DNA of 39,667 nt, taken from a virus. The notes beneath the pieces were generated by a model. That model had not been told where the DNA came from. It did no database searches and saw only the letters and a program-made list of their open reading frames with translations. The stretch covers positions 1 through 39,667 of IMG/VR virus record IMGVR_UViG_3300006077_000579. The stretch is one strand, 5' to 3'. A program made the translations under genes and the position numbers. This document shows, in pieces, positions 625-37,833 of this stretch. Within the stretch, counting starts at the first letter, position 1. The number at the start of each line of letters is the position of its first letter.

Positions 625-627
625 AAA

Positions 628-10823: not shown

Positions 10824-11645
10824 ATGGGTAAAATGATAGCTACAGATGACACAATTAAAGAGATTGTTGAAAATGAAATAAAAAAGTTAGGTAATGAAGC
10901 TGATTTAAATCATATTGATGTTAGTAAAGTAACTGATATGGGAAATTTGTTTTCTAAAAGTAAATTTAACGGAGATATATCTCAATGGAATGTATCAAAT
11001 GTGACTTGTATGAAAGAAATGTTTTTTGGAAGTAAATTTAATGGGAACATATCTGATTGGGATGTATCTAGTTTAGAAAATATGAACTATATGTTCTATA
11101 ATAGTAAATTTAATCAAAATATATCTAGTTGGGATGTATCCAGCGTAACTAATATGATTCAAATGTTTTATAGTAGTCATTTCAACGGAGATATTTCTCA
11201 ATGGGACGTATCTAGCGTAACTGATATGAGTCATATGTTTTCTTACAGTAAATTTAACGGAGACATTTCTGAGTGGGATGTATCAAATGTGAGAAGTATG
11301 AATTTTATGTTTGGGTGTAACGTTTTTAACGGAAATATATCCGAGTGGGATGTGTCTAATGTAACAAATATGAGAGATTTGTTTTTGGGAAGTAAATTTA
11401 ACGGAAACATATCTAAGTGGAATGTATCGAATGTACAAGATATGTATTTTATGTTTGCTGAAAGCGTTTTCAATAAAGACATTTCTAAATGGGATGTCAG
11501 AAATGTTACTAATATGATGAATATGTTTGGGGATAGTAAATTTAACAAAGATATATCTGGTTGGAACGTCACTAATGTACAATATAACTCACGAATGTTC
11601 ATCGGTTGTAACATCAAACCTGAATTTAAACCAAATTTCGATTAA
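10824..11645 (+). CDS. DUF285/BspA-like repeat protein 12
   Basis: A 273-residue protein with short header [19 protein letters not shown], nine repeats and tail IGCNIKPEFKPNFD. The start follows the AAAAAGGTAAATAA spacer also used by the genes at 5220, 11694 and 12237, so short header and spacer travel together. Its second repeat ([13 protein letters not shown]) matches one in the fusion protein at 1643 (near 2710), evidence of exchange across the array. Confidence 0.92.
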   Translation: MGKMIATDDTIKEIVENEIKKLGNEADLNHIDVSKVTDMGNLFSKSKFNGDISQWNVSNVTCMKEMFFGSKFNGNISDWDVSSLENMNYMFYNSKFNQNISSWDVSSVTNMIQMFYSSHFNGDISQWDVSSVTDMSHMFSYSKFNGDISEWDVSNVRSMNFMFGCNVFNGNISEWDVSNVTNMRDLFLGSKFNGNISKWNVSNVQDMYFMFAESVFNKDISKWDVRNVTNMMNMFGDSKFNKDISGWNVTNVQYNSRMFIGCNIKPEFKPNFD

Positions 11646-11693
11646 AGAGCCGATTAAAAGAAATAAATAGAGCTAATTTAAAAAGGTAAATAA

Positions 11694-12122
11694 ATGGATA
11701 AAATGACAGCAACAGATGAGACAATTAAAGAGATTGTTGAAAATGAAATAAAAAAGTTAGGAAATGAAGCTGATTTAAATCATATTGATGTTTCAGAAGT
11801 AACTGATATGAAAAATTTGTTTTATGAAAGTAAATTTAATGGGGATATATCTAAGTGGGATGTATCAAATGTAAAAGATATGAGCAAAATGTTTTCTTAC
11901 AGTAAATTTAACAGAGACATTTCTGAATGGGATGTGTCTAATGTAACTGATATGGGTTTTATGTTTTATGAAAGTAAATTCAATCAAGATATATCTCAAT
12001 GGAATACATCTAATGTAGAATATATGGGATATATGTTTTATGAAAGTAAATTCAATCAAGATATATCTCTTTGGGATGATGAGAAAGTGAAAATAAATGG
12101 GTCGCGTGTTTCAAGATGGTAA
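11694..12122 (+). CDS. DUF285/BspA-like repeat protein 13, frameshifted at the 3' end
   Basis: A short header ([19 protein letters not shown]) and four good repeats are followed by a break. The frame runs into [16 protein letters not shown] and stops at 12122. The proper continuation lies in another frame directly across the break, so the 142-residue product is truncated relative to its siblings. The break is at GTGAAAATAAATGGG, where normal units read Val-x-x-Met-Gly. It could still be translated as a small four-repeat protein. Confidence 0.75.
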
Positions 12123-12213
12123 ATTTAACGGAGATATATCTAAGTGTTGCAAAATCAAACCTGAATTTAAACCAAATTTCGTATATAAAGAGTCGATTAA
12201 AAGAAATAAATAG
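12097..12213 (+). pseudogene. Out-of-frame 3' remainder of gene at 11694
   Basis: From 12097 the sequence reads [19 protein letters not shown], then IKPEFKPNFVYKES and a stop at 12211-12213. This is a repeat fused prematurely to the tail: the expected Ser-x-Trp has become SKCCK, which joins unit and tail by deletion. Together with the frameshift it records at least two events in this cassette. Confidence 0.65.
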
Positions 12214-12236
12214 AGCTAATTTAAAAAGGTAAATAA

Positions 12237-13136
12237 ATGAGTAAAATGATAGCTACAGATAAAACAATAGATGAGATAGTTGAAAATGAAATAAAAAAGC
12301 TAGGTAATGAAGCTGATTTAAATCATATTGATGTGAGTAAAGTAACGAGTATGCAAAATTTATTTTTAAAATCTAAATTCAACGGAGACATTTCTGAGTG
12401 GAATGTTGGAAATGTCACTGATATGGAAGCTTTGTTCTATGGAAGTGAATTCAACGGAGACATTTCAAAGTGGGATGTATCAAAAGTAAGTAATATGAGA
12501 GATTTGTTTTTCTTTAGCGAATTCAATGGAGACATCTCTGAGTGGGATGTATCTAGCGTAACTAATACGAGTTTTATGTTTTCTAATAGTAAATTCAACG
12601 GAAACATTTCCGAGTGGGGTGTATCGAATGTAAAAGAGATGGTTTCTATGTTTCAAGACGGTAAATTCAACGGAGACATCTCAAAATGGGACGTGTCCAG
12701 TGTAAAAGATATGTCTTCTGTGTTTTTCTTAAGTCTTTTCAACGGAGATATATCTCAATGGAATGTATCTAGTGTTGAAAATATGGTTTCTATGTTTGAA
12801 AATAGCGTATTTAATCAAGACATATCTCAATGGGACGTATCAAATGTAACGAATATGTCGTTTATGTTTGTTAAAAGTGTTTTCAATCAAGACATTTCTG
12901 AATGGAATGTGTCTAATGTAGAAAATATGGCATTTATGTTTTCTGAAAGTGAATTTAATCAAGACATATCTAAGTGGGATGTTGAGAGAGTGAAGAAAAT
13001 GGGTTATATGTTTAGTTATAGCGAGTTTAATCAAGACATTTCTGAGTGGAACGTGTCTAATGTGGATGATTATTCAGATATGTTTGTTGAAGCAAAACAC
13101 AAAGGCGTTAAACCTAAACAAAAACCAAAAGATTAA
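12237..13136 (+). CDS. DUF285/BspA-like repeat protein 14
   Basis: A 299-residue protein with short header MSKMIATDKTIDEIVENEI and about 10 repeats with strong variation between units. One unit uses WDVERVKKM in place of the SNV type. The usual tail is replaced by a basic, Lys/Pro-rich end (FVEAKHKGVKPKQKPKD), whose DNA resembles the AAAGGGGTTAAACCTAAAC spacer at 10785. An intergenic sequence therefore seems to have been captured as coding sequence. It is followed by a promoter, so it probably ends its transcription unit. Confidence 0.92.
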   Translation: MSKMIATDKTIDEIVENEIKKLGNEADLNHIDVSKVTSMQNLFLKSKFNGDISEWNVGNVTDMEALFYGSEFNGDISKWDVSKVSNMRDLFFFSEFNGDISEWDVSSVTNTSFMFSNSKFNGNISEWGVSNVKEMVSMFQDGKFNGDISKWDVSSVKDMSSVFFLSLFNGDISQWNVSSVENMVSMFENSVFNQDISQWDVSNVTNMSFMFVKSVFNQDISEWNVSNVENMAFMFSESEFNQDISKWDVERVKKMGYMFSYSEFNQDISEWNVSNVDDYSDMFVEAKHKGVKPKQKPKD

Positions 13137-13142
13137 GTTTAA

Positions 13143-13164
13143 TTTAAGTTTTTATTAGTATAAT
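13143..13164 (+). promoter_or_regulatory. Host-type promoter for gene at 13197
   Basis: TTTAAG (13143-13148), 10 bases (TTTTTATTAG), then TATAAT (13159-13164). TTTAAGTTTTT fits the C. jejuni TTTAAGTnTT element very well. The promoter starts only 6 bases after the preceding stop codon and would give a leader of about 25 nt with the ribosome site AAAGGAAAAAG. Confidence 0.7.
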
Positions 13165-13196
13165 ATGTTTAACTTTTTAAAATTAAAGGAAAAAGA

Positions 13197-13697
13197 ATGT
13201 GTTATATTAAACAAAAACTAGAGGCTCTATTTAGGAGAAAATTTTTCACAATTAAAGCTACAAACGAAACAATTAAAAAAATTGTTGAAGATGAAATATA
13301 TAAGCTAGGTTACGAAGCTGATTTAAATCACATAGATGTTAGCGAAGTAACTGATATGGATTGTTTATTCTATAATAGTAAATTTAATGGAGATATTTCT
13401 TTGTGGAATGTCTCCAATGTAACGAATATGAGTTTTATGTTTCACGGAAGTAAATTTAATGGAAATATAACTCAATGGGATGTGTCTAAAGTAACGGATA
13501 TGTCACATATGTTTTTTTCTTCCAGTGATTTTTTCCAGAATATTTTTAATTGGAAAGTGTCTAGTGGAACTGATATTAGTCAAATGTTCTGGGGGACACA
13601 TTTATCAAAAATGTTCTCAAAAGAGCGTTTATCCAATATGCTTTTATGTGGCGAATTTAATAAACTTACATATAATTATGGTGAGGTTTTAGCATAA
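13197..13697 (+). CDS. DUF285/BspA-like repeat protein 15, atypical C-terminus
   Basis: A 166-residue protein with a divergent long header (MCYIKQKLEALFRRKFFTIKA), three good repeats and one decayed unit (SSSDFFQNIFNWKVSSGTDI). The C-terminal part (SKMFSKERLSNMLLCGEFNKLTYNYGEVLA) has no repeat pattern and is not seen in the other members. The header carries an insertion where its right-hand neighbour has VRNKPK. This is either a decaying copy or a version with a new C-terminal segment. Confidence 0.88.
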   Translation: MCYIKQKLEALFRRKFFTIKATNETIKKIVEDEIYKLGYEADLNHIDVSEVTDMDCLFYNSKFNGDISLWNVSNVTNMSFMFHGSKFNGNITQWDVSKVTDMSHMFFSSSDFFQNIFNWKVSSGTDISQMFWGTHLSKMFSKERLSNMLLCGEFNKLTYNYGEVLA

Positions 13698-13728
13698 CAA
13701 ATAACTTTTTAAAATTAAAGGAAAAAGA

Positions 13729-14502
13729 ATGTGTCATATTAAACAAAAACTAGAGGACGTCAGAAATAAACCTAAAACAATTGTAGCAACAGATAATACA
13801 ATACGTGATATTGTTGAAGATGAAATAAAAAGGCTAGGTTACGAAGCTGATTTAAATCACATAGATGTGTCTAAAGTAACAAATTTATCTCATCTATTTT
13901 TTGAAAGTAAATTTAATGGAGATATTTCTCAATGGGACGTATCTAAAGTAAAAAATATGAATTTTTTGTTTTCTAAAGGTAAATTCAACGGAGACATTTC
14001 AAAATGGAAAGTGGGGCGTGTTACCGATATGGAAAATATGTTTTTTGTATCTAAATTCAACAAAGATATTTCTCAATGGGATGTATCAAGAGTAAAAAAC
14101 ACATTTGGAATGTTCCGTTTTAGTAAATTCAACAAAGACATTTCTAAGTGGAAAGTTTATAGAGTTGAAGATATGGCTTATATGTTTCAAGATAGTAAAT
14201 TTAATCAAGACATATCTCAATGGGATGTCGGAAATGTTAGAGATATGGGGTTTATGTTTGAAGATAGTAAATTTAATCAAGATATATCTCAATGGGATGT
14301 ATCTAATGTGAAAAATATGGCTTATATGTTTTATAGAAGTAAATTTAATCAAGACATTTCAGAGTGGGATGTATCTAGTGTAAAGGGTATGTCGTTTATA
14401 TTTGCTAGAAGTGAATTTAATGGTGATGTATCTAAGTGGGATATATCTAATGTTTTCGACAAACGTGAAATATTTCTCAAAAGTAAATGTAAAAGGGACT
14501 AA
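13729..14502 (+). CDS. DUF285/BspA-like repeat protein 16
   Basis: A 257-residue protein with header MCHIKQKLEDVRNKPKTIVA, the same start cassette and ribosome site (TTAAAGGAAAAAGAATG) as the gene at 13197. It has eight repeats, including the variant KWKVGRVTDMENMF that links it to the three genes downstream, and KWKVYRVEDM. It ends SNVFDKREIFLKSKCKRD with no standard tail. Confidence 0.92.
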   Translation: MCHIKQKLEDVRNKPKTIVATDNTIRDIVEDEIKRLGYEADLNHIDVSKVTNLSHLFFESKFNGDISQWDVSKVKNMNFLFSKGKFNGDISKWKVGRVTDMENMFFVSKFNKDISQWDVSRVKNTFGMFRFSKFNKDISKWKVYRVEDMAYMFQDSKFNQDISQWDVGNVRDMGFMFEDSKFNQDISQWDVSNVKNMAYMFYRSKFNQDISEWDVSSVKGMSFIFARSEFNGDVSKWDISNVFDKREIFLKSKCKRD

Positions 14503-14528
14503 ATTTATAAATAAAAAAGGGAAATAAT

Positions 14529-15581
14529 ATGAGTGATTTTAAACAAATACTAGAGGATGTTAGAAATAAACCTGATACAATTATAGCAACTAATGAAACA
14601 ATTAAAAAAATAGTTGAAAAAGAAATAAAAAGCCTTGGAAATAAAGCTGATTTAAATCACATTGATGTATCTAAAGTGACAAATATGGAAGCTATGTTCT
14701 CTGGTAGTAAATTTAACGGAGATATTTCTGGTTGGAATGTACTTAATGTGACTGATATGCGTTATATGTTTAAAAATAGTGATTTCAATAAAGATATTTC
14801 TGGTTGGGATGTATCTAAAGTAACAAATATGTGTCAAATGTTCACAGATAGTAAATTCAACAAAGATATATCTAGTTGGGATGTGTCTAATGTAACTGAT
14901 ATGGGCTTTTTGTTCTCTGAAACTAAATTCAACAAAGATATATCTAGTTGGGATGTGTCAAAAGTGATAGATATGAGATATATGTTTTATAAAGGTAAAT
15001 TCAATCAAGACATTTCAAAATGGAAAGTGGGACGCGTAACCAATATGATTTCTATGTTCTCAAGAAGCGATTTCAACAAAGATATTTCTCAATGGGATGT
15101 ATCAAATGTAACTGATATGAGCTTTATGTTCTCTGGAACTATATTCAACAAAGACATATCTAGTTGGAATGTGTCAAAAGTAACTGATATGTCATATATG
15201 TTCTCTGAAACTAAATTCAACAAAGATATTTCTCAATGGGATGTATCAAATGTAACTGATATGGTGTTTATGTTTCGTTTTAGTAAATTTAATCAAGACA
15301 TATCTAGTTGGGACGTATCTAAAGTAACCAATATGTCACATATGTTTTCTAAAAGCGAATTTAATCAAGACATTTCTGAATGGAATGTGACAAGCGTAAC
15401 CAATATGGAATATATGTTTTTTTCAACTAAATTTAATCAAGACATTTCTAAGTGGGATGTATCTAATGTTAAAAAAATGGGCTATATGTTTTATAGAAGT
15501 AAATGCGATAAAGGACCATATGGGTGGGAAATATCAAGTTCAACCGATACGGAAAATATGTTCTATGATGATTTTATGTAA
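14529..15581 (+). CDS. DUF285/BspA-like repeat protein 17
   Basis: At 350 residues this is one of the longer single-header members: header MSDFKQILEDVRNKPDTI, then about 12 repeats. The sixth boundary is the distinctive WKVGRVTNMISMFSRSDF, present with nearly identical DNA in the next two genes. Many units use SSWDVSKV and FNKDIS, with Thr in place of Ser-Lys (SETKFNKD). The end is irregular (YGWEISSSTDTENMFYDDFM). Confidence 0.92.
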   Translation: MSDFKQILEDVRNKPDTIIATNETIKKIVEKEIKSLGNKADLNHIDVSKVTNMEAMFSGSKFNGDISGWNVLNVTDMRYMFKNSDFNKDISGWDVSKVTNMCQMFTDSKFNKDISSWDVSNVTDMGFLFSETKFNKDISSWDVSKVIDMRYMFYKGKFNQDISKWKVGRVTNMISMFSRSDFNKDISQWDVSNVTDMSFMFSGTIFNKDISSWNVSKVTDMSYMFSETKFNKDISQWDVSNVTDMVFMFRFSKFNQDISSWDVSKVTNMSHMFSKSEFNQDISEWNVTSVTNMEYMFFSTKFNQDISKWDVSNVKKMGYMFYRSKCDKGPYGWEISSSTDTENMFYDDFM

Positions 15582-15646
15582 TGGTGTTGAACATAAACTA
15601 ATTTCATCAATGCAACTAAATTTATAAATAAAAAAGGGAAAATAAT

Positions 15647-16621
15647 ATGAGCGATTTTAAACAAATGTTAAAGGGTGTTAGGGGAAATTCTCACACAATT
15701 AAAGCTACAAACGAAACAATTAGAAATATTGTTTTAAGAGAAATAAGACATATTGGGACAAAAGTTGATTTAAACCATATTGATGTATCTGAAGTGACAA
15801 ATTTGAGTGGATTATTTAAAAATATCCCTTTCACTGGGGACATATCTAGTTGGGATGTGTCTAATGTAACTGATATGAGTAGAATGTTCGTTAATGCCTC
15901 ATTCAACGGAGACATTTCTGGGTGGAACGTATCTAAGGTAAAAGATATGCAGGAAATGTTTCATAAAAGTAGATTTAATAAAGACATTTCTGAGTGGAAT
16001 GTGTCAAATGTGACTGATATGCGTAGTATGTTTCATACAAGTAAATTCAATAGGAACATATCTAAATGGAATGTGTCAAAAGTAACTGATATGCGTTTTA
16101 TGTTTTATATGAGTAAATTCAACGGAGACATTTCAAAATGGAAAGTGGGACGTGTAACCAAAATGGCATCTATGTTCTCAAGAAGCGATTTCAACAAAGA
16201 TATTTCTCAATGGGATGTATCAAATGTAACTGATATGTCGAAAATGTTCTGTGAAACTAAATTCAACAAAGCCATATCTCAATGGGAAGTATCTAGTGTG
16301 GAAGATATGAGTTATATGTTTCACGAGTGTGACTTCAACAAAGACTTATCTCAATGGGACGTGTCTAGTGTAGAAGATATGGGATTTATGTTTAGTGATA
16401 GTGCATTTAATCAAGACATATCTGAGTGGGATGTATCTAAAGTAACAAATATGAAATATATGTTTTATAAAACTAAATTTAATCAAGACATATCTGAGTG
16501 GGATGTATCTAAGGTAAGAGATATGCGATTTATGTTTAATTCAAGTGATTTCAATAAAGACATTTCTAAGTGGAAAATAACTCAAAAAACCAATACTGAT
16601 TATATGTTCGAGGGCGTCTAA
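15647..16621 (+). CDS. DUF285/BspA-like repeat protein 18
   Basis: A 324-residue protein with divergent header [40 protein letters not shown] (LGNEAD is changed to IGTKVD) and about 11 repeats. It has the shared WKVGRVTKMASMFSRSDF segment. The block from about 16132 to 16237 differs from 15015-15120 by only a few bases. The end is KWKITQKTNTDYMFEGV, without the IKPEFKPNF tail. Confidence 0.92.
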   Translation: MSDFKQMLKGVRGNSHTIKATNETIRNIVLREIRHIGTKVDLNHIDVSEVTNLSGLFKNIPFTGDISSWDVSNVTDMSRMFVNASFNGDISGWNVSKVKDMQEMFHKSRFNKDISEWNVSNVTDMRSMFHTSKFNRNISKWNVSKVTDMRFMFYMSKFNGDISKWKVGRVTKMASMFSRSDFNKDISQWDVSNVTDMSKMFCETKFNKAISQWEVSSVEDMSYMFHECDFNKDLSQWDVSSVEDMGFMFSDSAFNQDISEWDVSKVTNMKYMFYKTKFNQDISEWDVSKVRDMRFMFNSSDFNKDISKWKITQKTNTDYMFEGV

Positions 16622-16625
16622 TATT

Positions 16626-16653
16626 TTTAGTAAAATGTATCATATTTACTAAA
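16626..16653. repeat. Inverted repeat downstream of array gene 18
   Basis: TTTAGTAAA (16626-16634) and TTTACTAAA (16645-16653) form a 9-bp perfect inverted repeat with a 10-base spacer, 5 bases after the stop. It is AT-only in character and has no T-tract after it. It could be a weak mRNA 3' hairpin or an operator-like site before the gene at 16729. Confidence 0.35.
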
Positions 16654-16728
16654 TATAAATCTAAAAGGATTAAAATTAATTTGTAATAAATAGATTTATA
16701 AATAAATTTATATAAAAAAGGAAATAAG

Positions 16729-17490
16729 ATGAATGATTTTAAACAAATACTAGAGGGTGTTAGAAATAAATCTGAAACAATTATAGCTTCAGATGAGACA
16801 ATTGAAGATATTGTTGAAAGGGAAATAAAAAGACTAGGTTATAAAGCTGATTTAAATCATATTGATGTTAGTGAAGTAACGAATATGTCACGCTTATTTT
16901 ATTCTAAAAAATTCAACGGAAACATTTCAAAATGGAATGTGTCAAATGTAGAAGATATGAACTATATGTTTGCATTTAGCGATTTCAATGGGAACATATC
17001 TAGTTGGGATGTGTCTAACGTAACTAATATGCGTTTTATGTTCTTTGAAAGTAAATTCAACGGAAACATCCCAAAATGGAAAGTGGGACGTGTAACCAAT
17101 ATGACATCTATGTTCTCAAGAAGCGATTTCAACAAAGATATTTCTGGGTGGAATGTATCTAATGTGAGAAAAATGGGATTTTTGTTCTCTGGAACTAAAT
17201 TCAACAAGGATATATCTGGTTGGGATGTGTCTAATGTAACTGATATGAGTTTTATGTTTGAAAATAGCGTATTTAATAAAGACATATCTGAATGGGATGT
17301 ATCTAATGTGAAAACTATGGGGTATATGTTTAATTTTAGTAAGTTTAATAAAGATATTTCTGAGTGGGATGTATCTAAGGTAGAAGATATGCAATTTATG
17401 TTTCATAAAAGCGAATTCGACGGAGACATTTCTAAGTGGAAAATATCGCGTTCAACCTATAAGAAAAATATGTTCTCTGATGAAAATTAA
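16729..17490 (+). CDS. DUF285/BspA-like repeat protein 19
   Basis: A 253-residue protein with header MNDFKQILEGVRNKSETIIA and eight repeats. It contains the third copy of the WKVGRVTNMTSMFSRSDF cassette (about 17069-17150), here after a Pro variant (NGNIPKWKVG). It ends KWKISRSTYKKNMFSDEN. This is the last gene of the left array. The next 67 bases lead into uvsW with no clear promoter, so read-through is possible. Confidence 0.92.
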   Translation: MNDFKQILEGVRNKSETIIASDETIEDIVEREIKRLGYKADLNHIDVSEVTNMSRLFYSKKFNGNISKWNVSNVEDMNYMFAFSDFNGNISSWDVSNVTNMRFMFFESKFNGNIPKWKVGRVTNMTSMFSRSDFNKDISGWNVSNVRKMGFLFSGTKFNKDISGWDVSNVTDMSFMFENSVFNKDISEWDVSNVKTMGYMFNFSKFNKDISEWDVSKVEDMQFMFHKSEFDGDISKWKISRSTYKKNMFSDEN

Positions 17491-19657: not shown

Positions 19658-22522
19658 ATGGAATATATAGTGGTTAAAAGAGATGGTGTTGAAGAACCAT
19701 TCGATTTTGATAAAATTTATAAACATATGAAAAGAGCTTGTGATGGCTTAAAAGTTGATGTGAATAAATTAGTTGAAAATTTTAAAATAAGAATGAATGA
19801 GAAAATGGAGAGTGCAAATATACAAAGAAGTTTATACTCTACAGCAGCATCACTAACAAATGAAGACGAACCAGATTGGCAGTATGCGTCTGCAAGATTA
19901 TTAAAGGATGATTTATATCAAAGAATTTACGGAGGGCATACGCCTAAATTTGATTATAGTGCGTTAAAAGATAGAATTGAAATGGGGTTCTATGATAAAG
20001 AAATTTTAGAACATTATACAGAAGACGAATTTAATGAACTCGCAAGCTATATAAATTTTGAGAGAGATGATAATTTCACATATCTTGGTTTAACTCAAAT
20101 GATTAAGAAATATAGTATCAGACGAAACGGTTTATCTATTGAAACTCCACAAGAAATATTTTTCTTAATTGGAGCTTATATATTTTCAAGAAATAAAAAT
20201 AAAGCTGTTCGAAAGAAAAAAGTCCTAACATTATATGAAAAGTTATCTACATTTAAAATTTTCTTGGCTACTCCCCCAATGTGTGGTATAAGAAGCTTAA
20301 AAAGAGGTTTTACAAGTTGTGCTGGTATTGATTATGGTGATAGCATAGAGAGCTTTGGAAATGCTACTAAAAATATGCTAAAACTCATTACAAGATTAAA
20401 TGCTGGAATTGGTGCTAAGTCTATGAATATCAGAGGTTTAGGAGCAGATATAGGTTCAGGGCAAGATGAACACACTGGTTTAATACCTTATCTAAAAATA
20501 TATGAAGCTATTTCAAGAAGTTCAACTCAACCAAATTCTGGTCGTAGTGGTGCTATAACAAATTATTATCCATTTTTCCATTGTGAAATAGAAGATATAA
20601 TGACTTTGAAAAATAATAAAGGCTCTGATGAAAATAGCGTAAGATTTAGCGACCATTCAATAGTCTTTAATAAACTTTTTTATGAAAGAGTAAAATCAGG
20701 CAAAGAAATTTGTTTATTCCACCTTAATGAAGTTAAAGAACTCGTGGAAGTTATGGGTGAATATAAAAAATTCAAAAAGCTTTATGAAGCATTTGAAAAG
20801 GATGAAACAAAGACAAGAAAATTTGTTAGTGCTGAATATATCTTAAGAAGATATTATAATGAGAGATACATAACAGCTAGATTATACAAGGTTAATGCTG
20901 ATGAAATGCAAGGACACGGAGCTTTTGATTTACCAAATGTGTCTTCAAATCTTTGTTTAAGAGGCGACACAATAATCATCATAGCTTCAAAACAACGCAA
21001 AGGGAAACACGAAAGAATTTATTTGAGAGATGCAAAGATAGGGGATTTGGTACTATCACGTAATACTGAAACAAAAATGGATGAGTTCAAAAGAATTTCT
21101 AATGTTGCTATGACAAATCCAAAAGCAGAAGTTTTACAAATTGTTAATGGCGTTTCTGATATTGTTTGTACTCCAGAACACAAAGTTTGGACTGAAAATA
21201 GAGGTTATGTAAAGGCGAAAGATATAAAGAGAGGTGATAACCTTAGACGAATGGGTTTTAATTTAAACGAAAGTGTAATTGTACCTTTAGAAAATAAAAT
21301 TCCAGTCTATGATATTACAGTAGAAGATAATAACAACTTTTATGCTAATGGAATTCTAGTACATAATTGTACTGAAATAAATCTTCCTAGTTTTCCAGAT
21401 GAAAAACTAAAATTAAAGGTAAAGGATAAAGGAAAATTTGAATCATTTATACAAGCATCATATGAAAACGGAACTTGGTATGACATTTATAGGGTTCTAT
21501 ATTTAAATATTAAACCTGATGATTTATCCATATATGATGAATTGAATAAATTTATAAACGAAGACGCTAATGAAGATGTAGAAATAAACTTTGGTGAGAT
21601 TTTTAGTTGTATTTTAGGTGGTATTAATATAGGAATATTACCTAAGAATATTAAAGCTAGACAAAAAGAAATTAAAGAGAGTATGGGAATATTAGTTGGC
21701 TTTTTAGATGAAATGATAGATTATCAAGACTATGCTGATATAAAAGCCTTTGAAAAATTTACAAGGAAAAGAAGAGCATTAGGAATTAGTCCAGGAAATT
21801 TGTTTTATATGTTGGCAAGAAATAACGTTGAATACAATTCACAGGAAGCTAGAGATTTAGTCAATGATGTGTCTTCAGAAATGTTATATTATGGTATAGA
21901 TGCTTCAGTTGAATTAGCAAAAGAAAAGGGAAAATGTGAATATTTTGCTGATACGAAATATAGTAAAGGCATCCTACCAATCGATACATATAATAAAAAT
22001 GTAGATAAATTATTATCAAGGAAAGAGAATTTAGATTGGGAAGACTTAAGACAAAGAATATTAAAACACGGAATGAGAAACTCAACAATAATGACATCAG
22101 TCCCGAGTTCAAATGGTTCTCGTCCAGCGAATATGATTTCTGGTATAAATCCTCCACAAGGGCTTGAATATGTTATAGAAGACCAGAAGATAAAAGTGAC
22201 TGGTGTTGTACCTGAAGTGAAGAAATATAAAGAATGGTATAAAAGACATATCTGTTGGGAACTTGATATGATTGAATATTGGAAATTATTAGCTATAATT
22301 CAAAAGAATAATGATCAAGCCATTAGTATAAATGAATACATAGATTTTACAAAATATCCAAATAAAAAGATACCTTTGGTTGAAGTCTTGAAAAGAGATT
22401 TATTTACAAATGCATTTGGTTTAAAAAGCATCTATTATGCTAAAACAAAGACTGAAGAAAACGAAGACGATACTGAAACATCTGATACAGAGGGGTGTTC
22501 AAGTGGTGGTTGTACTCTCTAA
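19658..22522 (+). CDS. nrdA: Class Ia ribonucleotide reductase large subunit with in-frame mini-intein
   Basis: The 954-codon frame gives an 816-residue NrdA after removal of a 138-residue intein. It reduces ribonucleotides to deoxyribonucleotides for phage DNA. An N-terminal ATP cone (VVKRDGVEEPFDFDKI) covers roughly residues 4-90. Redox cysteines are C221 (TSCAGIDYGDS) and C651 (FSCILGG). The catalytic Asn-x-Cys-x-Glu is split as N431, L432, intein, C571, T572, E573. The radical-transfer Tyr pair is at 926-927, and the C-terminal shuttle cysteines are C947 and C952 (CSSGGC). All residues expected for activity are present. AAAAAGGAAAAG gives a good start at 19658. nrdB follows after 262 bases. 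Confidence 0.96.
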   Translation: MEYIVVKRDGVEEPFDFDKIYKHMKRACDGLKVDVNKLVENFKIRMNEKMESANIQRSLYSTAASLTNEDEPDWQYASARLLKDDLYQRIYGGHTPKFDYSALKDRIEMGFYDKEILEHYTEDEFNELASYINFERDDNFTYLGLTQMIKKYSIRRNGLSIETPQEIFFLIGAYIFSRNKNKAVRKKKVLTLYEKLSTFKIFLATPPMCGIRSLKRGFTSCAGIDYGDSIESFGNATKNMLKLITRLNAGIGAKSMNIRGLGADIGSGQDEHTGLIPYLKIYEAISRSSTQPNSGRSGAITNYYPFFHCEIEDIMTLKNNKGSDENSVRFSDHSIVFNKLFYERVKSGKEICLFHLNEVKELVEVMGEYKKFKKLYEAFEKDETKTRKFVSAEYILRRYYNERYITARLYKVNADEMQGHGAFDLPNVSSNLCLRGDTIIIIASKQRKGKHERIYLRDAKIGDLVLSRNTETKMDEFKRISNVAMTNPKAEVLQIVNGVSDIVCTPEHKVWTENRGYVKAKDIKRGDNLRRMGFNLNESVIVPLENKIPVYDITVEDNNNFYANGILVHNCTEINLPSFPDEKLKLKVKDKGKFESFIQASYENGTWYDIYRVLYLNIKPDDLSIYDELNKFINEDANEDVEINFGEIFSCILGGINIGILPKNIKARQKEIKESMGILVGFLDEMIDYQDYADIKAFEKFTRKRRALGISPGNLFYMLARNNVEYNSQEARDLVNDVSSEMLYYGIDASVELAKEKGKCEYFADTKYSKGILPIDTYNKNVDKLLSRKENLDWEDLRQRILKHGMRNSTIMTSVPSSNGSRPANMISGINPPQGLEYVIEDQKIKVTGVVPEVKKYKEWYKRHICWELDMIEYWKLLAIIQKNNDQAISINEYIDFTKYPNKKIPLVEVLKRDLFTNAFGLKSIYYAKTKTEENEDDTETSDTEGCSSGGCTL
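20954..21367 (+). mobile_element. Mini-intein in NrdA at the catalytic cysteine
   Basis: Residues 433-570 of the precursor form a complete splicing domain of only 138 residues. Block A starts with Cys (CLRGDTIII). Block B has TPEHKVW with the Thr-x-x-His pattern. Block F is VYDITVEDNNNFYANGI, and block G ends VHN before the +1 Cys. All four splice residues (Cys1, block-B His, terminal His-Asn, Cys+1) are intact, so splicing should work. There is no LAGLIDADG or HNH homing nuclease. The linker between blocks B and F is only about 30 residues, so this intein cannot spread by itself. The +1 cysteine is the thiyl-radical residue of the enzyme. Confidence 0.93.
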
Positions 22523-22784: not shown

Positions 22785-23930
22785 ATGAAAAAATTAGAAA
22801 TTTATACGCTCGATAGAGTGGCGACAACAGAACAGCCATATTTCTTTGGTGAAGCTAAGAATACCCAAAGGTTTGATAAAAATAGATATGAGTGGCTCTC
22901 TAAACAAGCATTGGAATTCCAAAGATTATTTTGGGTGCCAGAAGAGATTAAATTAAACAAAGATAAAATGGATTTTAACACTGCTACAAAGGCAGAATTA
23001 TGGATATTAACAAAACAATTATCTAAATTGGAATTTCTTGATAGCTATCAAGGGAGAAATCCACTTTTGACTTTTGGGCAACTAACAACTAGTCCTGAAT
23101 TAGAGGGTATTTTATTAGAACAAACTTATTTTGAGTCAAGGCTTCACGCTAGAAGTTATTCATATATGATTGAAAACATATATCCAAATCCAGATGAAGT
23201 TTTTGAAGATATTTGGAGCAATGAGGTTTTGTTAAAACACGCAAAAACGGTTGTTAAAGAGGGTAATAATTTATATGAATTAGTAATAGAACATATATAT
23301 AAAACACAAAAATCAATTGAAATAACAGAAGATGAAATTTACAACTTAAAAAAATCTATTTTACTAGCATTTGTTAGTATGAATATTTTGGAGGGTATAA
23401 GATTTTATCTTGGGTTCGCAAGTGTTTGGGCTCTTACGGAATTTAGCAATAAATTTCCAGGAAGTAGTAAGATTTTACAATTCATTCAAAGAGATGAAAG
23501 AAAACATTTAGGTTTTACACAATATATGATTAATCAACTTAAAAAACTAGATGGATGGAAGTCAATTTGGGAAGAGATACAACCAACAGTTTATGAAATG
23601 TATTTCACAGCATCTGAAGAAGAGTTTGAGTGGGCTGATTATCTTTATTCAAACGGTAGCATCTTAGGTATGAACGGTGAAGTTGGAAAACAATATGTTA
23701 AATACATAACAAACCAAAGAACCAAAGCAATTGGTATAAAGAAACTATATCCAGAGATTAAAGAAAATCCAATAAGTTGGTTAAAGAAGTACATAAATTT
23801 ATCAACTTCTGAAACAGCTCTTCAGGAGTCAGAAGCAGTTGATTATATTTCCGACCCAATAAATGACAATGGTGATTTTAAGAAGTCTTTTAATGAAGCA
23901 TTAAAGTTTATAGAGAACTTATTGAAGTAA
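22785..23930 (+). CDS. nrdB: Class I ribonucleotide reductase small subunit
   Basis: The 381-residue protein houses the metal-radical cofactor that activates NrdA. Metal and radical residues by alignment with E. coli R2: D86 (LDSYQG), H121 and radical Y125 (HARSY), E203 (LEGIRFY), and E238 with H241 (RDERKH). The glutamate of the first helix is odd. The usual E-x-x-H is E117-S-R-L-H121 (ExxxH), one residue longer, and the DNA (GAGTCAAGGCTTCAC) confirms it. The start is at the ATG 7 bases after AAAGG. Together with nrdA it makes the phage dNTP supply. The C-terminal tail (NEALKFIENLLK) differs from the E. coli R1-docking peptide, as expected for a self-contained pair. Confidence 0.94.
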   Translation: MKKLEIYTLDRVATTEQPYFFGEAKNTQRFDKNRYEWLSKQALEFQRLFWVPEEIKLNKDKMDFNTATKAELWILTKQLSKLEFLDSYQGRNPLLTFGQLTTSPELEGILLEQTYFESRLHARSYSYMIENIYPNPDEVFEDIWSNEVLLKHAKTVVKEGNNLYELVIEHIYKTQKSIEITEDEIYNLKKSILLAFVSMNILEGIRFYLGFASVWALTEFSNKFPGSSKILQFIQRDERKHLGFTQYMINQLKKLDGWKSIWEEIQPTVYEMYFTASEEEFEWADYLYSNGSILGMNGEVGKQYVKYITNQRTKAIGIKKLYPEIKENPISWLKKYINLSTSETALQESEAVDYISDPINDNGDFKKSFNEALKFIENLLK

Positions 23931-23934: not shown

Positions 23935-24354
23935 GTGAAAACTTCTTACTATGCTAATATAAAAAACCTTGATGGTTTGTTGGTTGCTATATCTTTATAT
24001 CCTCCAGTATGGGTAAAAACAGACTGTTGGGAAAGAGCATTAGCACCAGATAAAAGCATTTTGTTAGATATGAAACAAAAACTAATTACTGAAAATGAAT
24101 ATTATACAAGGTTCAGAGAACAGTTGGAGAATACAGAACATTTAATATATGAAGCGTTTAAAAACATATCAGAACGAAAAAGAGATAATCAAGAGGTATT
24201 TTTATTATGCTATGAAAAACCGACTGATTTTTGTCATAGACATATATTGAGTGAATTTTTATCAGAGCAAGGTTTAAAAGTATCAGAATTTGGTTGTGAA
24301 CTTTATAAGCCTGAATTAGGAAGATTAGTTGGTGGAATTTCAGATTTCATTTAA
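23935..24354 (+). CDS. DUF488 family protein
   Basis: A 139-residue protein beginning with GTG at 23935, 4 bases after nrdB. The C-terminal half has the DUF488 signature: C92 in LLCYEKP and C100-H101-R102 in DFCHRHILSEFL. The N-terminus MKTSYYANIKNL begins the typical strand. DUF488 proteins are small alpha/beta proteins of unclear activity that are common in phages and defence-related islands, with the Cys/His-Arg cluster suggesting a metal or redox site. Tight spacing implies co-expression with nrdB. No function can be assigned from the sequence. Confidence 0.85.
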   Translation: MKTSYYANIKNLDGLLVAISLYPPVWVKTDCWERALAPDKSILLDMKQKLITENEYYTRFREQLENTEHLIYEAFKNISERKRDNQEVFLLCYEKPTDFCHRHILSEFLSEQGLKVSEFGCELYKPELGRLVGGISDFI

Positions 24355-24363
24355 GGAAAAAAC

Positions 24364-24828
24364 ATAAAAAAGTATTACAATTACATATATCTAAATCCAT
24401 TAAATAAAGGTTCATTTAAATATAATCTGCTTAATTTCTCTTTATTATATGAGCCGATTTATGTTGGTAAGGGACAAAAAGATAGGTATTTACATCATTT
24501 TAAAGAATGTGTCGGTGTCAATAATAATTTTACCTTACTAAAAAATACAAATAAGTGTAAAAAAATTTATGAGATATTATTAAAGTTAAATAAAATATAT
24601 TCAAAAGAAGACTCGATTAAAATTTTATCTTCTTATATATTGGTTTTTAATTTTACGGATAACGAACAAATAGCTTTGAAAAATGAAAGAATTTTGATAA
24701 ACATTTTAGGAAATAGAGGCTTCTCGAATGAGTCAAAAATAACAAATAAAGTTGGTTACGGTAAAAAATTAAATCAAAGTAAAGCAACAAAAACTATTAG
24801 AAAATTAAAAAATTATTGGAGATATTAA
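24364..24828 (+). CDS. GIY-YIG nuclease, apparent AUA start
   Basis: The frame is open from 24355 and encodes KKYYNYIYLNPLNKG, YEPIYVGKGQKDRYLHHF, and a later E in ALKNERILI. These are the Tyr-x-Tyr strand, the YVGKG strand, the catalytic Arg (DRY) and the catalytic Glu of a GIY-YIG domain. About 154 residues, like free-standing phage homing nucleases. No ATG, GTG or TTG occurs before the domain. The only sensible start is ATA at 24364, placed 6 bases after a perfect AAGGA, exactly where ATG would be. Either AUA is used weakly or a G-to-A change has silenced the gene. The first conventional start, TTG at 24640, would remove the active site. The stop overlaps the gp47 start (TAATG). Confidence 0.7.
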   Translation: MKKYYNYIYLNPLNKGSFKYNLLNFSLLYEPIYVGKGQKDRYLHHFKECVGVNNNFTLLKNTNKCKKIYEILLKLNKIYSKEDSIKILSSYILVFNFTDNEQIALKNERILINILGNRGFSNESKITNKVGYGKKLNQSKATKTIRKLKNYWRY

Positions 24829-25916
24829 TGAATAAATCGATTTTATTAGGTGATTTGCATTTTGGAGTTAAAGGGTTTTCTAAAAAATTCTTTGAAAATC
24901 AAATCTCCTATTTCAAAGAGGAACTAATTCCTAGAATGAAAAAAGATAACATAAAAACAGTTTTTCAATTTGGGGACTTTTTTGATAATAGAAAAATCCA
25001 AGATGTGTTACTTTTAACAGAGGTGGTTGGATTTTTAGAATATTGGAAGGAACAAATACCTGATTTAAAAATATATATGTTGTTGGGAAACCACGATATT
25101 TATTTTAGGGAAAAATTAGATGTTTCAACTATTGAATTGGTTTCAAAAATATTTGATTTCATAGAAGTTATAAAGAAACCTACTTGTATTGGTAATATAC
25201 AATTATTTCCTTGGGTTGTTGGTAAAGTTGGTAAAGAAGACTTTAAAAGAGATATAATTTTTGGACATTTTGAGATTAAAAATTTCAATATGACAAAGGG
25301 AATAGTATGTGAGTCGGGCTTGGAGACGTCTATTTTCGGTGATAGACAAGTTTATAGTGGGCATTTCCATCTAAGAGGTGAAAGAAGTAATATACACTAT
25401 ATAGGAACTCCTTACCAGATAAATTGGAATGATGTTGGAGATAAAAGAGGGGCTTTTATATTTGACACTGAAAATGGTAAAATACTTGATTTTATAGAAA
25501 ACAAGTCAAGTAAATTACATATAATTATTATTATTAAAGATGGGAATATTATCTTAAATGTTTTTGATGGAGAAGAGGCTTACTTCAATTTAAAGGAATT
25601 TGGAAAATTTCTTGAAGATGGTTTTGATAAAATTCTTTTAAATTCTTACGTTAAGATTATAGTTAAAGATGCAAGTTTCAGAGATGCTTTGGAATTAATT
25701 AAAAGTTACAACATTTTAGAATTCATTTTCATAAATCAAGCTCAAATTGATGTTGAAATAGAAGACATTGATGTTGATACTTCAACTATTGAGGAAACTG
25801 TAAGTGAAACTATTAAAACTATAACTGATGATGGTGTGAATAAGGAAAGATTATTGGAAAAGGCTAGAAACCTTTTGCAGAGGGTTAGAAGCAAACAAGA
25901 TGATAAAAAGGAATAA
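24828..25916 (+). CDS. gp47: gp47-like SbcD/Mre11 recombination nuclease subunit
   Basis: The 362-residue protein shows all metallophosphoesterase motifs of the SbcD/Mre11 family: GDLHFG (8-13), GDFFDNR (49-55), GNHD (87-90), a GHFE near 147 and GHFH near 177. T4 gp47 is of similar length (about 340). With gp46 it resects DNA ends to start recombination-dependent replication. The start is ATG 24828, which overlaps the upstream TAA and follows TTGGAGA. A TTG at 24816 in the same frame would put the ribosome site inside the gene. An acidic then basic C-terminal extension (DVDTSTIEETV and RNLLQRVRSKQDDKKE) probably contacts gp46. gp46 starts at the next base. Confidence 0.93.
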   Translation: MNKSILLGDLHFGVKGFSKKFFENQISYFKEELIPRMKKDNIKTVFQFGDFFDNRKIQDVLLLTEVVGFLEYWKEQIPDLKIYMLLGNHDIYFREKLDVSTIELVSKIFDFIEVIKKPTCIGNIQLFPWVVGKVGKEDFKRDIIFGHFEIKNFNMTKGIVCESGLETSIFGDRQVYSGHFHLRGERSNIHYIGTPYQINWNDVGDKRGAFIFDTENGKILDFIENKSSKLHIIIIIKDGNIILNVFDGEEAYFNLKEFGKFLEDGFDKILLNSYVKIIVKDASFRDALELIKSYNILEFIFINQAQIDVEIEDIDVDTSTIEETVSETIKTITDDGVNKERLLEKARNLLQRVRSKQDDKKE

Positions 25917-27635
25917 ATGTTGGAAATAGATTTCAAGAAAATAAAATTTAAGAATATTGGAGCTTATGGTGATATAGAGCAAGAAATTAATTTTTCCAGA
26001 GGCATAAGCTTGATAATAGGAAAAAACGGAAGAGGAAAATCAACTATCATAGAAGCCTTGACTTATGTCTTGTATGGGAAACCATTCAGTAAGATAAGAT
26101 TGGGAAGTTTAATTAACAAATACAATAATAAAAATCTTAGAGTTGAATTGGATATTAATGTTAATGGGAAAGAGATAAAAATCATTAGAGGACAAAAACC
26201 AGTTGTTTTCTCTATATTTGTGAATAAAAAAGAGTTAAATTTTACTGATTTAAAACAACACCAGCTGACATTAGAACAACATTTGGGTATGTCAGAGAAT
26301 ATTTTCAGACAATTAATTGCACTTGGTGCGAATTTACAACATTCAAAAAACTTTATGGAATTAAGTAAAAAGGAAAAGGAAGAAATTTTACAAATAATTT
26401 CTGACACCACTTTATTCGGTTTATTATCAAACGAAATAAAAGAAGTAAAAACAGAAATAAAAAACAATATTTCAAATCACAATCAACAAATGAGCTTTTT
26501 GAAAAATGGTTTATCATCATCGCAAAGTATTTTAAAGAATATAGAGGCTCAAAATCTGGAGATAAAAACAAATAAAGAAAAAAGAATAAAAGAAATTCTC
26601 ACACAAATAGAAGTTGCTAAAGCGTCTATAAAAGAGGGTGGGGAAAAAATAAAAGAAATTGATGATATTTTAACACAAACCACGCCTTTGCTTAAAAGAT
26701 TTGATGATGTTGAAAATACAGTAAATAAGATAAATAATGATATTGTATTCTACACAGCAACAAAGGTTCAATTTGATAACTCCCCTGAAATAAAATGCCC
26801 AAAGTGTGGAGAAGATTTTAAAGAAATAGAGGCTAAAAGAAAAATAGAAATTGAAGATACTATTGCTAAATTAAAGGAAAAGCAAGAGGAACTTAAAGAA
26901 CATCAACAAGAATTTGAAAAACTTGAAAAGGTAATGTTAATACATAATCAAAATGAAAAAGCAAGAGGAGAACATTTAAATGATTTAAATATTTTGAAAA
27001 ATAATTTAAACAGATTAGATGAGCAATTAAAAGAATTAAAGGAAATGAGCGAAGTTTCAACAGAACATACGCAAAAAGAAATTGAAAAGTATGAAAAGAA
27101 ATTAGATGGGATTAGAAAAAAGCTTACTTCTGACGAAATTGATTTTGATGAATATAATATACTTGATGAAATTTTAAGTATAAAATCGGTTGTTGGTAAT
27201 ATAATCAATAAACAAGTACCAATGTTGAATAAATTTATAAACGAATATCTTGAGAAATTTGAAGTTGATTATCAATTCTTTTTAGATAAAGAATTAAAAG
27301 AAACCATCTTAAAAAGAGATGAAGAATTTGAATACAATTCTTTAAGTAATGGGGAAAAACAAAGAATAGTTTTAAGTATTCTATTCGCTTTTTTAAGATT
27401 GATTGAAGTATCAGTAAAAATTAATATTTTATTTCTTGATGAATTTCTCGACTCATCTTTAGATGATGATGGAACAAATTTAGTATTAGAGATATTAAAA
27501 AATGAATTCAAAGAAAAAAATATTTTCATTATATCTCATAAACAAGAAATAAAAAATATTGATGACGAAACAAATAATGTGTATTTCATAGACAAGGACG
27601 ACAGGAAAAAATTTAGTATAATAAAAAAAGGATAA
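25917..27635 (+). CDS. gp46: gp46-like SbcC/Rad50 recombination ATPase subunit
   Basis: The 572-residue protein (T4 gp46 about 560) has Walker A GKNGRGKST (35-43), long coiled coils broken by a zinc-hook CPKC at 294-297, the ABC signature LSNGEKQR (476-483), and Walker B NILFLDEFLD around 503. This is the full Rad50/SbcC architecture. The hook Cys pair joins two molecules through zinc, and ATP binding controls the gp47 nuclease. The start directly abuts the gp47 stop, with ribosome site AAAAAGGA. The gene lies between two repeat arrays that would be good substrates for its pathway. Confidence 0.94.
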   Translation: MLEIDFKKIKFKNIGAYGDIEQEINFSRGISLIIGKNGRGKSTIIEALTYVLYGKPFSKIRLGSLINKYNNKNLRVELDINVNGKEIKIIRGQKPVVFSIFVNKKELNFTDLKQHQLTLEQHLGMSENIFRQLIALGANLQHSKNFMELSKKEKEEILQIISDTTLFGLLSNEIKEVKTEIKNNISNHNQQMSFLKNGLSSSQSILKNIEAQNLEIKTNKEKRIKEILTQIEVAKASIKEGGEKIKEIDDILTQTTPLLKRFDDVENTVNKINNDIVFYTATKVQFDNSPEIKCPKCGEDFKEIEAKRKIEIEDTIAKLKEKQEELKEHQQEFEKLEKVMLIHNQNEKARGEHLNDLNILKNNLNRLDEQLKELKEMSEVSTEHTQKEIEKYEKKLDGIRKKLTSDEIDFDEYNILDEILSIKSVVGNIINKQVPMLNKFINEYLEKFEVDYQFFLDKELKETILKRDEEFEYNSLSNGEKQRIVLSILFAFLRLIEVSVKINILFLDEFLDSSLDDDGTNLVLEILKNEFKEKNIFIISHKQEIKNIDDETNNVYFIDKDDRKKFSIIKKG

Positions 27636-34460: not shown

Positions 34461-34958
34461 ATGGCTTTTGATAGAAGTAAATGGGATATAGGTGGAGTTG
34501 TGAATACGGATAAAAAAATGAGTCAAGATTTAAGTGATTTGCGTGGTGAGGCTGTTTTTTCTGGAGAAATAAGCAGTTGGTCTATTTCTGGAAATGAAAA
34601 CAGATGTGGTATTGCTGCTGTAGCTGATGTTTCTGAGGATGTAGTTGCTATTGCTGGTATTGCTGCTGCTGTAGCTGATGTTTCTGGGAATGTTTCTGAG
34701 GATGTTTCTGTGGGTGTAGCTGATGTGGTTGCTGGTGCTGTTGATGTGGCTGCTGGTGTAGCTATAGCTGGTGCAGTTGCTGATGTGGTTGCTGGTGTAG
34801 ATATAGCTGATACAGTTTCTGATGTAGTTTCTGATGTAGTTTCTGATGATATTGCTGATTTTCTTGACGAAGTAGTTGATGAAATTGGAGACGATATTGG
34901 TGATTACCTTGATGATGTCTTTGACGAAGTATCTGATATTGTTTCGGATATTTTTTAA
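34461..34958 (+). CDS. Acidic Ala/Val/Asp-rich low-complexity protein A
   Basis: The 165-residue protein has three parts. The N-terminus has LRGEAVFSGEISSWSISGNE, whose FSGEISSWSIS matches the FNGDISxWDVS half of a DUF285 repeat. The middle (about 55-125) is built of short Val-Ala-Asp-Gly blocks (VADVVAGAVDVAAGVAIAGA) that look like slippage-prone triplet and hexamer repeats. The acidic C-terminus (DDIGDYLDDVFDEVSDIVSD) is shared with the gene at 35015. There is no signal peptide. The strongly acidic character could mimic DNA or act as a chaperone-like or assembly protein; no evidence decides. It has its own promoter and lies just before the second repeat array. Confidence 0.85.
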   Translation: MAFDRSKWDIGGVVNTDKKMSQDLSDLRGEAVFSGEISSWSISGNENRCGIAAVADVSEDVVAIAGIAAAVADVSGNVSEDVSVGVADVVAGAVDVAAGVAIAGAVADVVAGVDIADTVSDVVSDVVSDDIADFLDEVVDEIGDDIGDYLDDVFDEVSDIVSDIF

Positions 34959-35014
34959 AACATTCTCATTTAAATAAAGAGTAGAAATAGAAAAATAGAA
35001 ATAAAGGTAAAAAA

Positions 35015-35344
35015 ATGACTTATAATTTAAATGATTTTCGTGGTGAAATTATTTTTTCTGGAGAAATAAGCAAATGGGATATTTCTGGGAATAAAGTAGC
35101 CAATGTGGTTGATGATGCGGTTGATGATGCACTTACCGTTGCAGGTATAGTTGCAGGTGTGACTGGCGTTGCCAGTGTTTCTGTTGCTGGTGTTTCTGAG
35201 AATGAAGCTGAGATAACCGATTCAGCTGATGTTGCTGATTTAGTTGCTAGTGTGGTTGGTATTGGAAGTTCAATTGATGATATTGGTGATTTCCTTGGAG
35301 ATGCCTTTGGCGAAGTATCTGATATTGTTTCGGATATTTTTTAA
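35015..35344 (+). CDS. Acidic Val/Ala/Asp-rich low-complexity protein B
   Basis: A 109-residue paralogue of the protein at 34461. It has the same N-terminal module (FRGEIIFSGEISKWDISGN, even closer to a DUF285 repeat) and the same C-terminus (DDIGDFLGDAFGEVSDIVSD), joined by a shorter, different Val-Ala-Gly middle. The ends are conserved while the middle changes in length and sequence, so selection seems to act on the ends. It is 56 bases downstream of its paralogue with ribosome site AAAGGT and no clear promoter of its own, so it is likely co-transcribed. Confidence 0.85.
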   Translation: MTYNLNDFRGEIIFSGEISKWDISGNKVANVVDDAVDDALTVAGIVAGVTGVASVSVAGVSENEAEITDSADVADLVASVVGIGSSIDDIGDFLGDAFGEVSDIVSDIF

Positions 35345-35750: not shown

Positions 35751-36887
35751 ATGAATGATGAAATAAAAATGAAAACAACAAAAATTATAGCAACAGACAA
35801 AACAATAAAAATAATTGTTGAAGATGAAATTAAAAGGCTTGGGATTAGAGCTGATTTTAATCATATTGATGTTAGTAGTGTAACTGATTTTTCAAGATTA
35901 TTCCAAAGGAGATATTTCTATGGTAATATATCTAAATGGAATGTATCAAATGCTATTAATATGGAAGCTATGTTCGCATCTAGTGATTTCAATGGGAATA
36001 TATCTGATTGGAATGTTAGTAGGGTAGAAAATATGGAGGATATGTTTTATGGTAGTGGTTTCAACGGAAATATATCTGAGTGGGATGTTGGGAATGTAAA
36101 ATATATGTGTCATATGTTTGCAGATAGTGAATTTAATAAAGACATTTCTAAGTGGAATGTATCTAGTGTAAAAAGTATGTTTGGTATGTTCTCATTTAGC
36201 GATTTTAGTCAATCAGAAATATGTGATTGGAATGTTAGTAATGTTAAAAGTATGGAGGATATGTTTTATGGTAGTAAATTCAACAGAGATATATCTGAGT
36301 GGAACGTATCTAATGTAACTAATATGAGCAAAATGTTCTATAATAGTAAATTCAAAAAAGATATTTCTAAGTGGGACGTGTCTAAAGTAACTGATATGAG
36401 TAATATGTTTGGGGATAGCGTTTTTAATAAAGATATTTCTCAATGGGATGTGTCAAAAGTAACAAATATGTGTGCAATGTTTTGCTCTAGTAAATTCAAT
36501 CAAGATATTTCTGAGTGGGATGTATCTAGCGTAACGAATATGAAAAGTTTGTTTTTAGAAAGCATATTTGATGGTGATATTTCTCAATGGAATGTGTCTA
36601 ATGTAATCTTTATGAACCTTATGTTTGCTTATAGTGATTTTAATAAAGACATTTCTCAATGGGATGTATCTAGTGTAAAAGAAATGAACTCTATGTTTTC
36701 AAATAGTAAATTCAATAAAGACATTTCTGGTTGGAATGTTAGGAATGTAACTGATATGGGACATATGTTTGAAAACGCTTATTTTACTGGAAACTTATCT
36801 CAATGGAATGTAAAAAATGTAAAATTTTTCCAAGACATTTATAAAGATTGTCCCATAAAATTTATGTTGAAATCAAGGCTTATTTAA
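35751..36887 (+). CDS. DUF285/BspA-like repeat protein 20
   Basis: At 378 residues this is the longest single-header member. It has a header without the FKQIL part (MKTTKIIATDKTIKIIVEDEI), with LGIRADFNHIDVSSVTDF, and about 13 repeats. One unit (SDFSQSEICDWNVSN) carries an extra residue. The tail is degenerate (KDCPIKFMLKSRLI). It begins the right-hand array and is directly joined to the acidic gene upstream, so it shares promoter cassette 2. Confidence 0.92.
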   Translation: MNDEIKMKTTKIIATDKTIKIIVEDEIKRLGIRADFNHIDVSSVTDFSRLFQRRYFYGNISKWNVSNAINMEAMFASSDFNGNISDWNVSRVENMEDMFYGSGFNGNISEWDVGNVKYMCHMFADSEFNKDISKWNVSSVKSMFGMFSFSDFSQSEICDWNVSNVKSMEDMFYGSKFNRDISEWNVSNVTNMSKMFYNSKFKKDISKWDVSKVTDMSNMFGDSVFNKDISQWDVSKVTNMCAMFCSSKFNQDISEWDVSSVTNMKSLFLESIFDGDISQWNVSNVIFMNLMFAYSDFNKDISQWDVSSVKEMNSMFSNSKFNKDISGWNVRNVTDMGHMFENAYFTGNLSQWNVKNVKFFQDIYKDCPIKFMLKSRLI

Positions 36888-36938
36888 AGAAAATATAATT
36901 TACATATAAATTTGGAAATACAAAAAAAAAGGAAAAAG

Positions 36939-37805
36939 ATGAGTGAATTTAAACAAAAATCAGAGAGCGTTAGAAATGAAACTAAGACAATTTTAGCAAC
37001 TGATGTAACAATAAAAGAGATAGTTGAAGATGAAATAAAAAAGTTAGGTAATGAAGCTGATTTAAATCACATCGATGTGTTTGAAGTAACTGATATGTTT
37101 GGATTATTCTCTTTTTCAAAATTCAACGGAGATATATCTCAATGGGATGTCTCCAAAGTAACAAATATGAGAGAGATGTTTCGCGAAAGTAAATTCAACG
37201 GAGATATATCTCAATGGAACGTTAGAAATGTAACTTTAATGGGTTCTATGTTTTGTGGAAGTAAATTCAACGGAGATATATCTGGTTGGGACGTATCTAA
37301 TGTTGAAGAAATGGATTTTATGTTCTTTCAAAGCATCTTCAACGGAGATATTTCTGAGTGGAACGTGTCTGGTGTAAAAGAGGGTATGGTGGGTATGTTT
37401 GCTCGTAGTGAATTTAATCAGGATATTTCCAAATGGAATGTTTCAAATGTAACTCATATGTCTAATATGTTTAGTTATAGCGTATTTAATCAGGATATTT
37501 CCGAATGGAACACAAATAAAGTGGAATGTATGGGTCATATGTTTTGTAATAGTGCTTTCAATCAAGATATATCTCAATGGGATGTGTCAAAAGTAACAAA
37601 TATGTGGGGAATGTTTCAAGATAGTAAATTCAATAAAGATATTTCTCAATGGGATGTATCAAATGTAAAAGATATAAGCAGTATGTTTAAAAATAGTGAA
37701 TTTAACGGAGATATATCTCAATGGAACATCATCAATGTTAGTAATTTTCGAGGCATATTTCACAAATGCACAATAAAAGATGAATTTAAGCCAAGATTGA
37801 AATAA
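36939..37805 (+). CDS. DUF285/BspA-like repeat protein 21
   Basis: The start is ATG 36939 after AAAAGGAAAAAG, giving 288 residues. A TTG at 36912 in frame would place the ribosome site inside. Header [33 protein letters not shown] (Ser to Phe), nine repeats and tail HKCTIKDEFKPRLK. One unit has an inserted residue pair (SGVKEGMVGMF). The last 50 bases of gene and spacer (37784-37833) recur exactly at 38788. Confidence 0.92.
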   Translation: MSEFKQKSESVRNETKTILATDVTIKEIVEDEIKKLGNEADLNHIDVFEVTDMFGLFSFSKFNGDISQWDVSKVTNMREMFRESKFNGDISQWNVRNVTLMGSMFCGSKFNGDISGWDVSNVEEMDFMFFQSIFNGDISEWNVSGVKEGMVGMFARSEFNQDISKWNVSNVTHMSNMFSYSVFNQDISEWNTNKVECMGHMFCNSAFNQDISQWDVSKVTNMWGMFQDSKFNKDISQWDVSNVKDISSMFKNSEFNGDISQWNIINVSNFRGIFHKCTIKDEFKPRLK

Positions 37806-37833
37806 GTGCATAAATAAGAAAGGAATAAGATGG
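37784..37833 (+). repeat. 50-bp exact spacer repeat, copy 1
   Basis: ATTTAAGCCAAGATTGAAAT and the following 30 bases, through the ATG and one G of the next gene, are identical to 38788-38837, 1004 bases downstream. It spans tail, stop, spacer, ribosome site and start codon, that is, a complete inter-gene joint. Confidence 0.9.

Follow-up and report, generated by a model that had tools for sequence, protein, structure and literature searches.

AUA is a weak start codon in bacteria generally. In Staphylococcus aureus, AUA or AUU starts with an extended Shine-Dalgarno sequence yield, in poor medium, about 10% of what AUG yields, and in rich medium the ccpN start reaches up to 30% (PMC13009471); these are S. 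aureus reporter values, from which the host of the phage described here may differ. Homing nucleases of T4-like phages are kept in check by hairpins that cover the ribosome-binding site (I-TevI/II/III, segB and Aeh1 mobE), by gene overlaps and by poor spacing, and the free-standing nucleases of T4 start at AUG, with one predicted at GUG (PMC2988022). Here we describe a phage gene for a GIY-YIG nuclease whose start position reads ATA. Most likely it is a mobile-type gene in a copy that was weakened recently, rather than an instance of a new mechanism.

The locus and its ATA start position

The window, that is, the whole stretch of DNA that was analysed, comprises one virus record (39,667 bases, 28% G+C) that carries T4-type genes for replication and recombination. 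Among isolated phages, its replicative helicase is best matched by Campylobacter T4-like phages, with about 35% identity. Roughly 23 adjoining frames for DUF285 (BspA/Mycoplasma-type) repeat proteins lie on either side of the replication genes (1-17490 and 35751-39364) and make up about half of the contig; two of them were tested against Pfam (401 and 293 bits) and the others were judged by eye. Such an expansion is unusual for a T4-like phage. Two adjoining frames at 34461-35344 each start with a DUF285-like piece and continue into low-complexity sequence rich in A, V, D and S; the first of the two frames gave no Pfam match. In addition, NrdA (19658-22522) has a short intein-like insert at about residues 434-573, with intein splicing matches to TIGR01443 and PF14890 (just under cut-off) and no nuclease domain among its Pfam matches.

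The genes of interest all lie on the plus strand. NrdB (22785-23930, PF00268), which served as the upstream marker of the locus, is followed by a DUF488 gene (23935-24354, PF22751/PF04343) and then by the nuclease frame (24364-24828), which has 154 codons plus a stop when read from the ATA and shares its reading frame with DUF488. Next in the same run are the gp47/SbcD-like recombination nuclease subunit (24828-25916, PHROG 100), whose ATG overlaps the last base of the nuclease stop (TAATG), and the gp46/SbcC-like ATPase (25917-27635), which is named by position and sequence type.

Positions 24352-24372 read TAA GGA AAA AAC ATA AAA AAG. The nuclease frame is open from 24355 to its stop at 24826-24828, and its first in-frame ATG, GTG or TTG is a TTG at 24640, 95 codons in and downstream of the GIY motif, the YIG motif and the catalytic Arg. 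The Shine-Dalgarno sequence AAGGA (24353-24357) overlaps the DUF488 stop TAA (24352-24354) and ends 6 nt before the ATA at 24364-24366. This reading bears out the earlier note, which had placed an ATA start behind AAGGA and had seen no canonical start ahead of the active site. Gene finders that require ATG, GTG or TTG would either miss the nuclease or trim it to a 62-residue stub.

The nuclease is the sole frame among the 43 long plus-strand frames of the window to lack a canonical start near its 5' end; the others have one at most 14 codons after the preceding stop, and most genes of the window carry AAAGG or AAAGGA 4-9 nt before their ATG. Although AAGGA stands 4-7 nt upstream of seven ATA triplets in the window, only the one at 24364 opens a gene, and two of the seven sit inside genes (25056 in gp47 and 29114 in the clamp loader). 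A tRNA search found no tRNA at all in the window, and hence none that might aid the decoding of AUA. The frame has what a used AUA start would have in its own sequence, namely a Shine-Dalgarno site spaced as usual and the absence of any canonical start to use instead, but the ATA is not kept among relatives, as the only ortholog found has ATG.

The ortholog and the nuclease family

The ortholog was found by a protein search with NrdB, in a region of contig IMGVR_UViG_3300026484_000250 (hereafter L003) where the gene order is NrdB, a 95-residue frame, a GIY-YIG gene, gp47 and gp46. NrdB is 67% identical between the two phages and gp46 47% identical (L003:4679-6397). The GIY-YIG gene (L003:3144-3593) lies just upstream of gp47, as in the window, and the two nucleases share 51% amino-acid identity. 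The proteins start M-K-R-Y-Y-N-Y-I-Y-L in L003 and I-K-K-Y-Y-N-Y-I-Y-L in the window, and in a gapless alignment the ATG of L003 stands opposite the ATA of the window, with a ribosome site of its own ahead of each. The gene upstream differs, there being no DUF488 at that place in L003, and both phages with this neighbourhood carry the GIY-YIG gene. Because the syntenic relative has ATG at exactly this codon, the ATA differs by a single base at what is the true start of an otherwise conserved gene; judged from homology, 24364-24366 is the start position of that gene.

The evidence base is one ortholog, and no second isolate with ATA was found. A search with the nuclease alone gave no close relative among viral contigs and phages, and an exact search of viral contigs with R at the variable base gave no near-identical record with either base, in a set from which near records may have been withheld. 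A two-sequence alignment had no match among genome contigs, and no PF22945 gene was present at the other phage gp46 loci searched, L003 excepted.

The window nuclease belongs to PF22945 (LEM-3_GIY-YIG) with 33.4 bits against a cut-off of 27, and its L003 ortholog scores 36.2. In a six-sequence alignment of the family it retains the invariant Y, Y, YxGKG, R, H, E and N columns. No PDB relative of the nuclease was found by sequence search; AlphaFold2 on two sequences gave a pLDDT of 53 and PDB fold matches that carry no meaning. The six-member alignment, too divergent for scanning genome contigs, found 80 viral relatives. These have a median length of about 290 residues, and in nearly all of them at least 186 residues follow the YIG motif, versus about 150 amino acids and about 120 residues, respectively, in the window and L003 copies. 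Matches to NUMOD3 or NUMOD1, mostly below cut-off, were present in three of the four isolated-phage relatives scanned by Pfam, and a Pfam scan of the window nuclease found no NUMOD match. The window nuclease lacks the NUMOD-type DNA-recognition tail past the catalytic domain by which a homing endonuclease would be recognised. Either the tail was already missing from the ancestor that the two short copies share, or each of them lost it.

A canonical start ahead of the domain was found by scan in 78 of the 80 relatives (65 ATG, 8 TTG and 5 GTG). Of the other two, L090 was missed by the motif and has a canonical start by eye, and L079 has none, so that L079 is the only sequence besides the window copy with no such start. 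Three relatives are frameshifted, with the protein resuming in another frame (L031, L038 and L039), and L081 ends early. With L079 included, roughly 5 of the 80 relatives look damaged, as judged by eye and with sequencing errors possible for some. Decay is thus common in this family, and a lost start would fit it.

These comparisons qualify the description of the gene as a silenced homing nuclease caught one base from function. The comparison at base 24366 that the earlier note proposed gave ATG at the aligned codon in one relative, and the gene is indeed one base from a canonical start. The catalytic domain is full, as claimed, with the C-terminal region of most family members absent. On the other hand, "homing" is unsupported as stated for a protein with no NUMOD-like tail, in which a homing function would be putative. 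"Silenced" is too strong, since in S. aureus reporters AUA starts with a strong Shine-Dalgarno site retain about 10-30% of the AUG output (PMC13009471).

Readings of the ATA

The account that we consider most likely, and hold with moderate confidence, is that a real and recent change of one base weakened the start of a short GIY-YIG gene. The ancestor would have been a short, vertically inherited LEM-3-type nuclease gene that sat beside gp47 in a T4-like phage, and a single base change in the present phage or strain would have turned its ATG into ATA. The ribosome site, the spacing and the coding sequence are still intact, and the change was probably recent and nearly neutral. Initiation at the AUA behind the AAGGA site would still yield a low level of protein, perhaps with the aid of reinitiation after the DUF488 stop; as AAGGA overlaps that stop, ribosomes ending DUF488 could restart 10 nt on. 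The gene would then be entering the decay that is usual for homing-type nucleases. The ATA, the Shine-Dalgarno site, the ATG of the ortholog, the synteny, the constraint over the pair and the lesions in relatives are observed; from them we infer that the base is real, the change recent and translation leaky rather than zero. If the lesion is fresh, the locus would offer a snapshot of the first decay step of a homing-type gene, which is an expected event.

Between the window and L003, the nuclease pair has dN 0.41, dS about 2.28 (near saturation) and dN/dS about 0.18, similar to or below the ratio of the neighbours gp46 and gp47, where a pairwise ratio reflects the history of the pair and is silent on the window's own branch. 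This constraint suggests that the domain kept some function even with no tail. The window frame has no internal stop and no frameshift, with about 0.28 stops expected per 1% divergence from random substitutions; an intact frame despite the expected stops implies that either the start change is recent or the protein has been kept. Outgroup residues are kept 3-7 times in the window nuclease versus 10-14 times in L003. The window copy would by this count have changed slightly faster, but the numbers are small and gp47 leans likewise, and the relative-rate test was set aside as evidence of decay.

A functional AUA throttle would leave the same sequence as the weakening account. We consider it possible, though rather unlikely, that the AUA start was selected to keep a dangerous nuclease scarce, replacing the RNA hairpins by which T4-like homing nucleases have their ribosome-binding sites hidden. 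T4-like phages as a rule keep such nucleases at a low level (PMC2988022), and AUA starts with a strong Shine-Dalgarno site damp S. aureus ccpN and infC (PMC13009471); however, the free-standing nucleases of T4 keep to AUG and one GUG (PMC2988022), and the ATA is known from a single sequence and is not conserved. RNA folding bears on both sides. In L003:3133-3175, the prediction has nearly all of the ribosome site and the ATG in base pairs, the Shine-Dalgarno sequence with codons about 11-13 (P about 0.9-1.0), whereas the site in the window is predicted mostly open, a contrast that comes from one pair only. The L003 hairpin is only moderately unusual (z -1.9), and another gene of the L003 phage shows as much pairing. 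As an observation in itself, the predicted L003 pairing resembles the restraining hairpins of T4-like homing nucleases. A hairpin sequestering the window's own ribosome site was also considered and is unsupported, given its mostly open prediction. That a maintained AUA keeps the nuclease dose low specifically in place of the hairpin that apparently covers the ortholog's ribosome site is doubtful. If the ATA is real and maintained, start-codon choice would join the known means by which phages keep DNA-cutting genes scarce.

An assembly error, a sequencing error or a minority strain variant in a phage population that really has ATG is unlikely, although the window is a single virus contig, the search of viral contigs gave no near-identical record with either base, and no biology is needed to explain a single differing base in one of 43 genes. 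Consensus base errors are as a rule uncommon, and the rest of the window does not look error-ridden, its other long plus-strand frames having canonical starts. A dead gene, with next to no AUA initiation in this host and no remaining translation of the frame, would draw on the general weakness of AUA in bacteria and on the start loss among the lesions of relatives. In S. aureus, AUA sites with an extended Shine-Dalgarno sequence reach 10-30% of AUG (PMC13009471). We nevertheless find this improbable: the frame, the Shine-Dalgarno site and the catalytic residues are intact, and the overlap of the gp47 ATG with the nuclease stop would fit ribosomes still passing through. Least probable of all is a fusion protein, made by ribosomes that read through the DUF488 TAA and on into the nuclease in the same frame. 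DUF488 is separated from the ATA by no more than the TAA and three codons, but a shared frame has a 1 in 3 chance, the ortholog has another upstream gene and its own ATG, and elsewhere in the window TAA serves as an ordinary stop; for these reasons readthrough was judged very improbable.

Comparison with known systems

The window nuclease resembles the phage members of PF22945, such as that of Bacillus phage Mater (CPT_Mater208) and the BcepSaruman "homing endonuclease" (QBX06642.1), in its domain, motif order and invariant residues. Unlike the family generally, in which some members have NUMOD3- or NUMOD1-like tails, it is short and starts with ATA. As with the seg genes of T4, it is a small nuclease gene among the replication and recombination genes of a T4-like phage. 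Reduced translation of the window nuclease would parallel the restraint of segB, Aeh1 mobE and I-TevI (PMC2988022), although in those genes the restraint acts via a hairpin, gene overlap or ribosome-binding-site spacing and AUA is not used. The S. aureus genes infC, ccpN and citZ share with it an AUA start and a Shine-Dalgarno site (PMC13009471). However, the infC and ccpN starts have been seen in use by ribosome profiling, whereas the window ATA is known from one contig, and the AUA of ccpN is conserved to B. subtilis, whereas the ortholog of the window nuclease has ATG.
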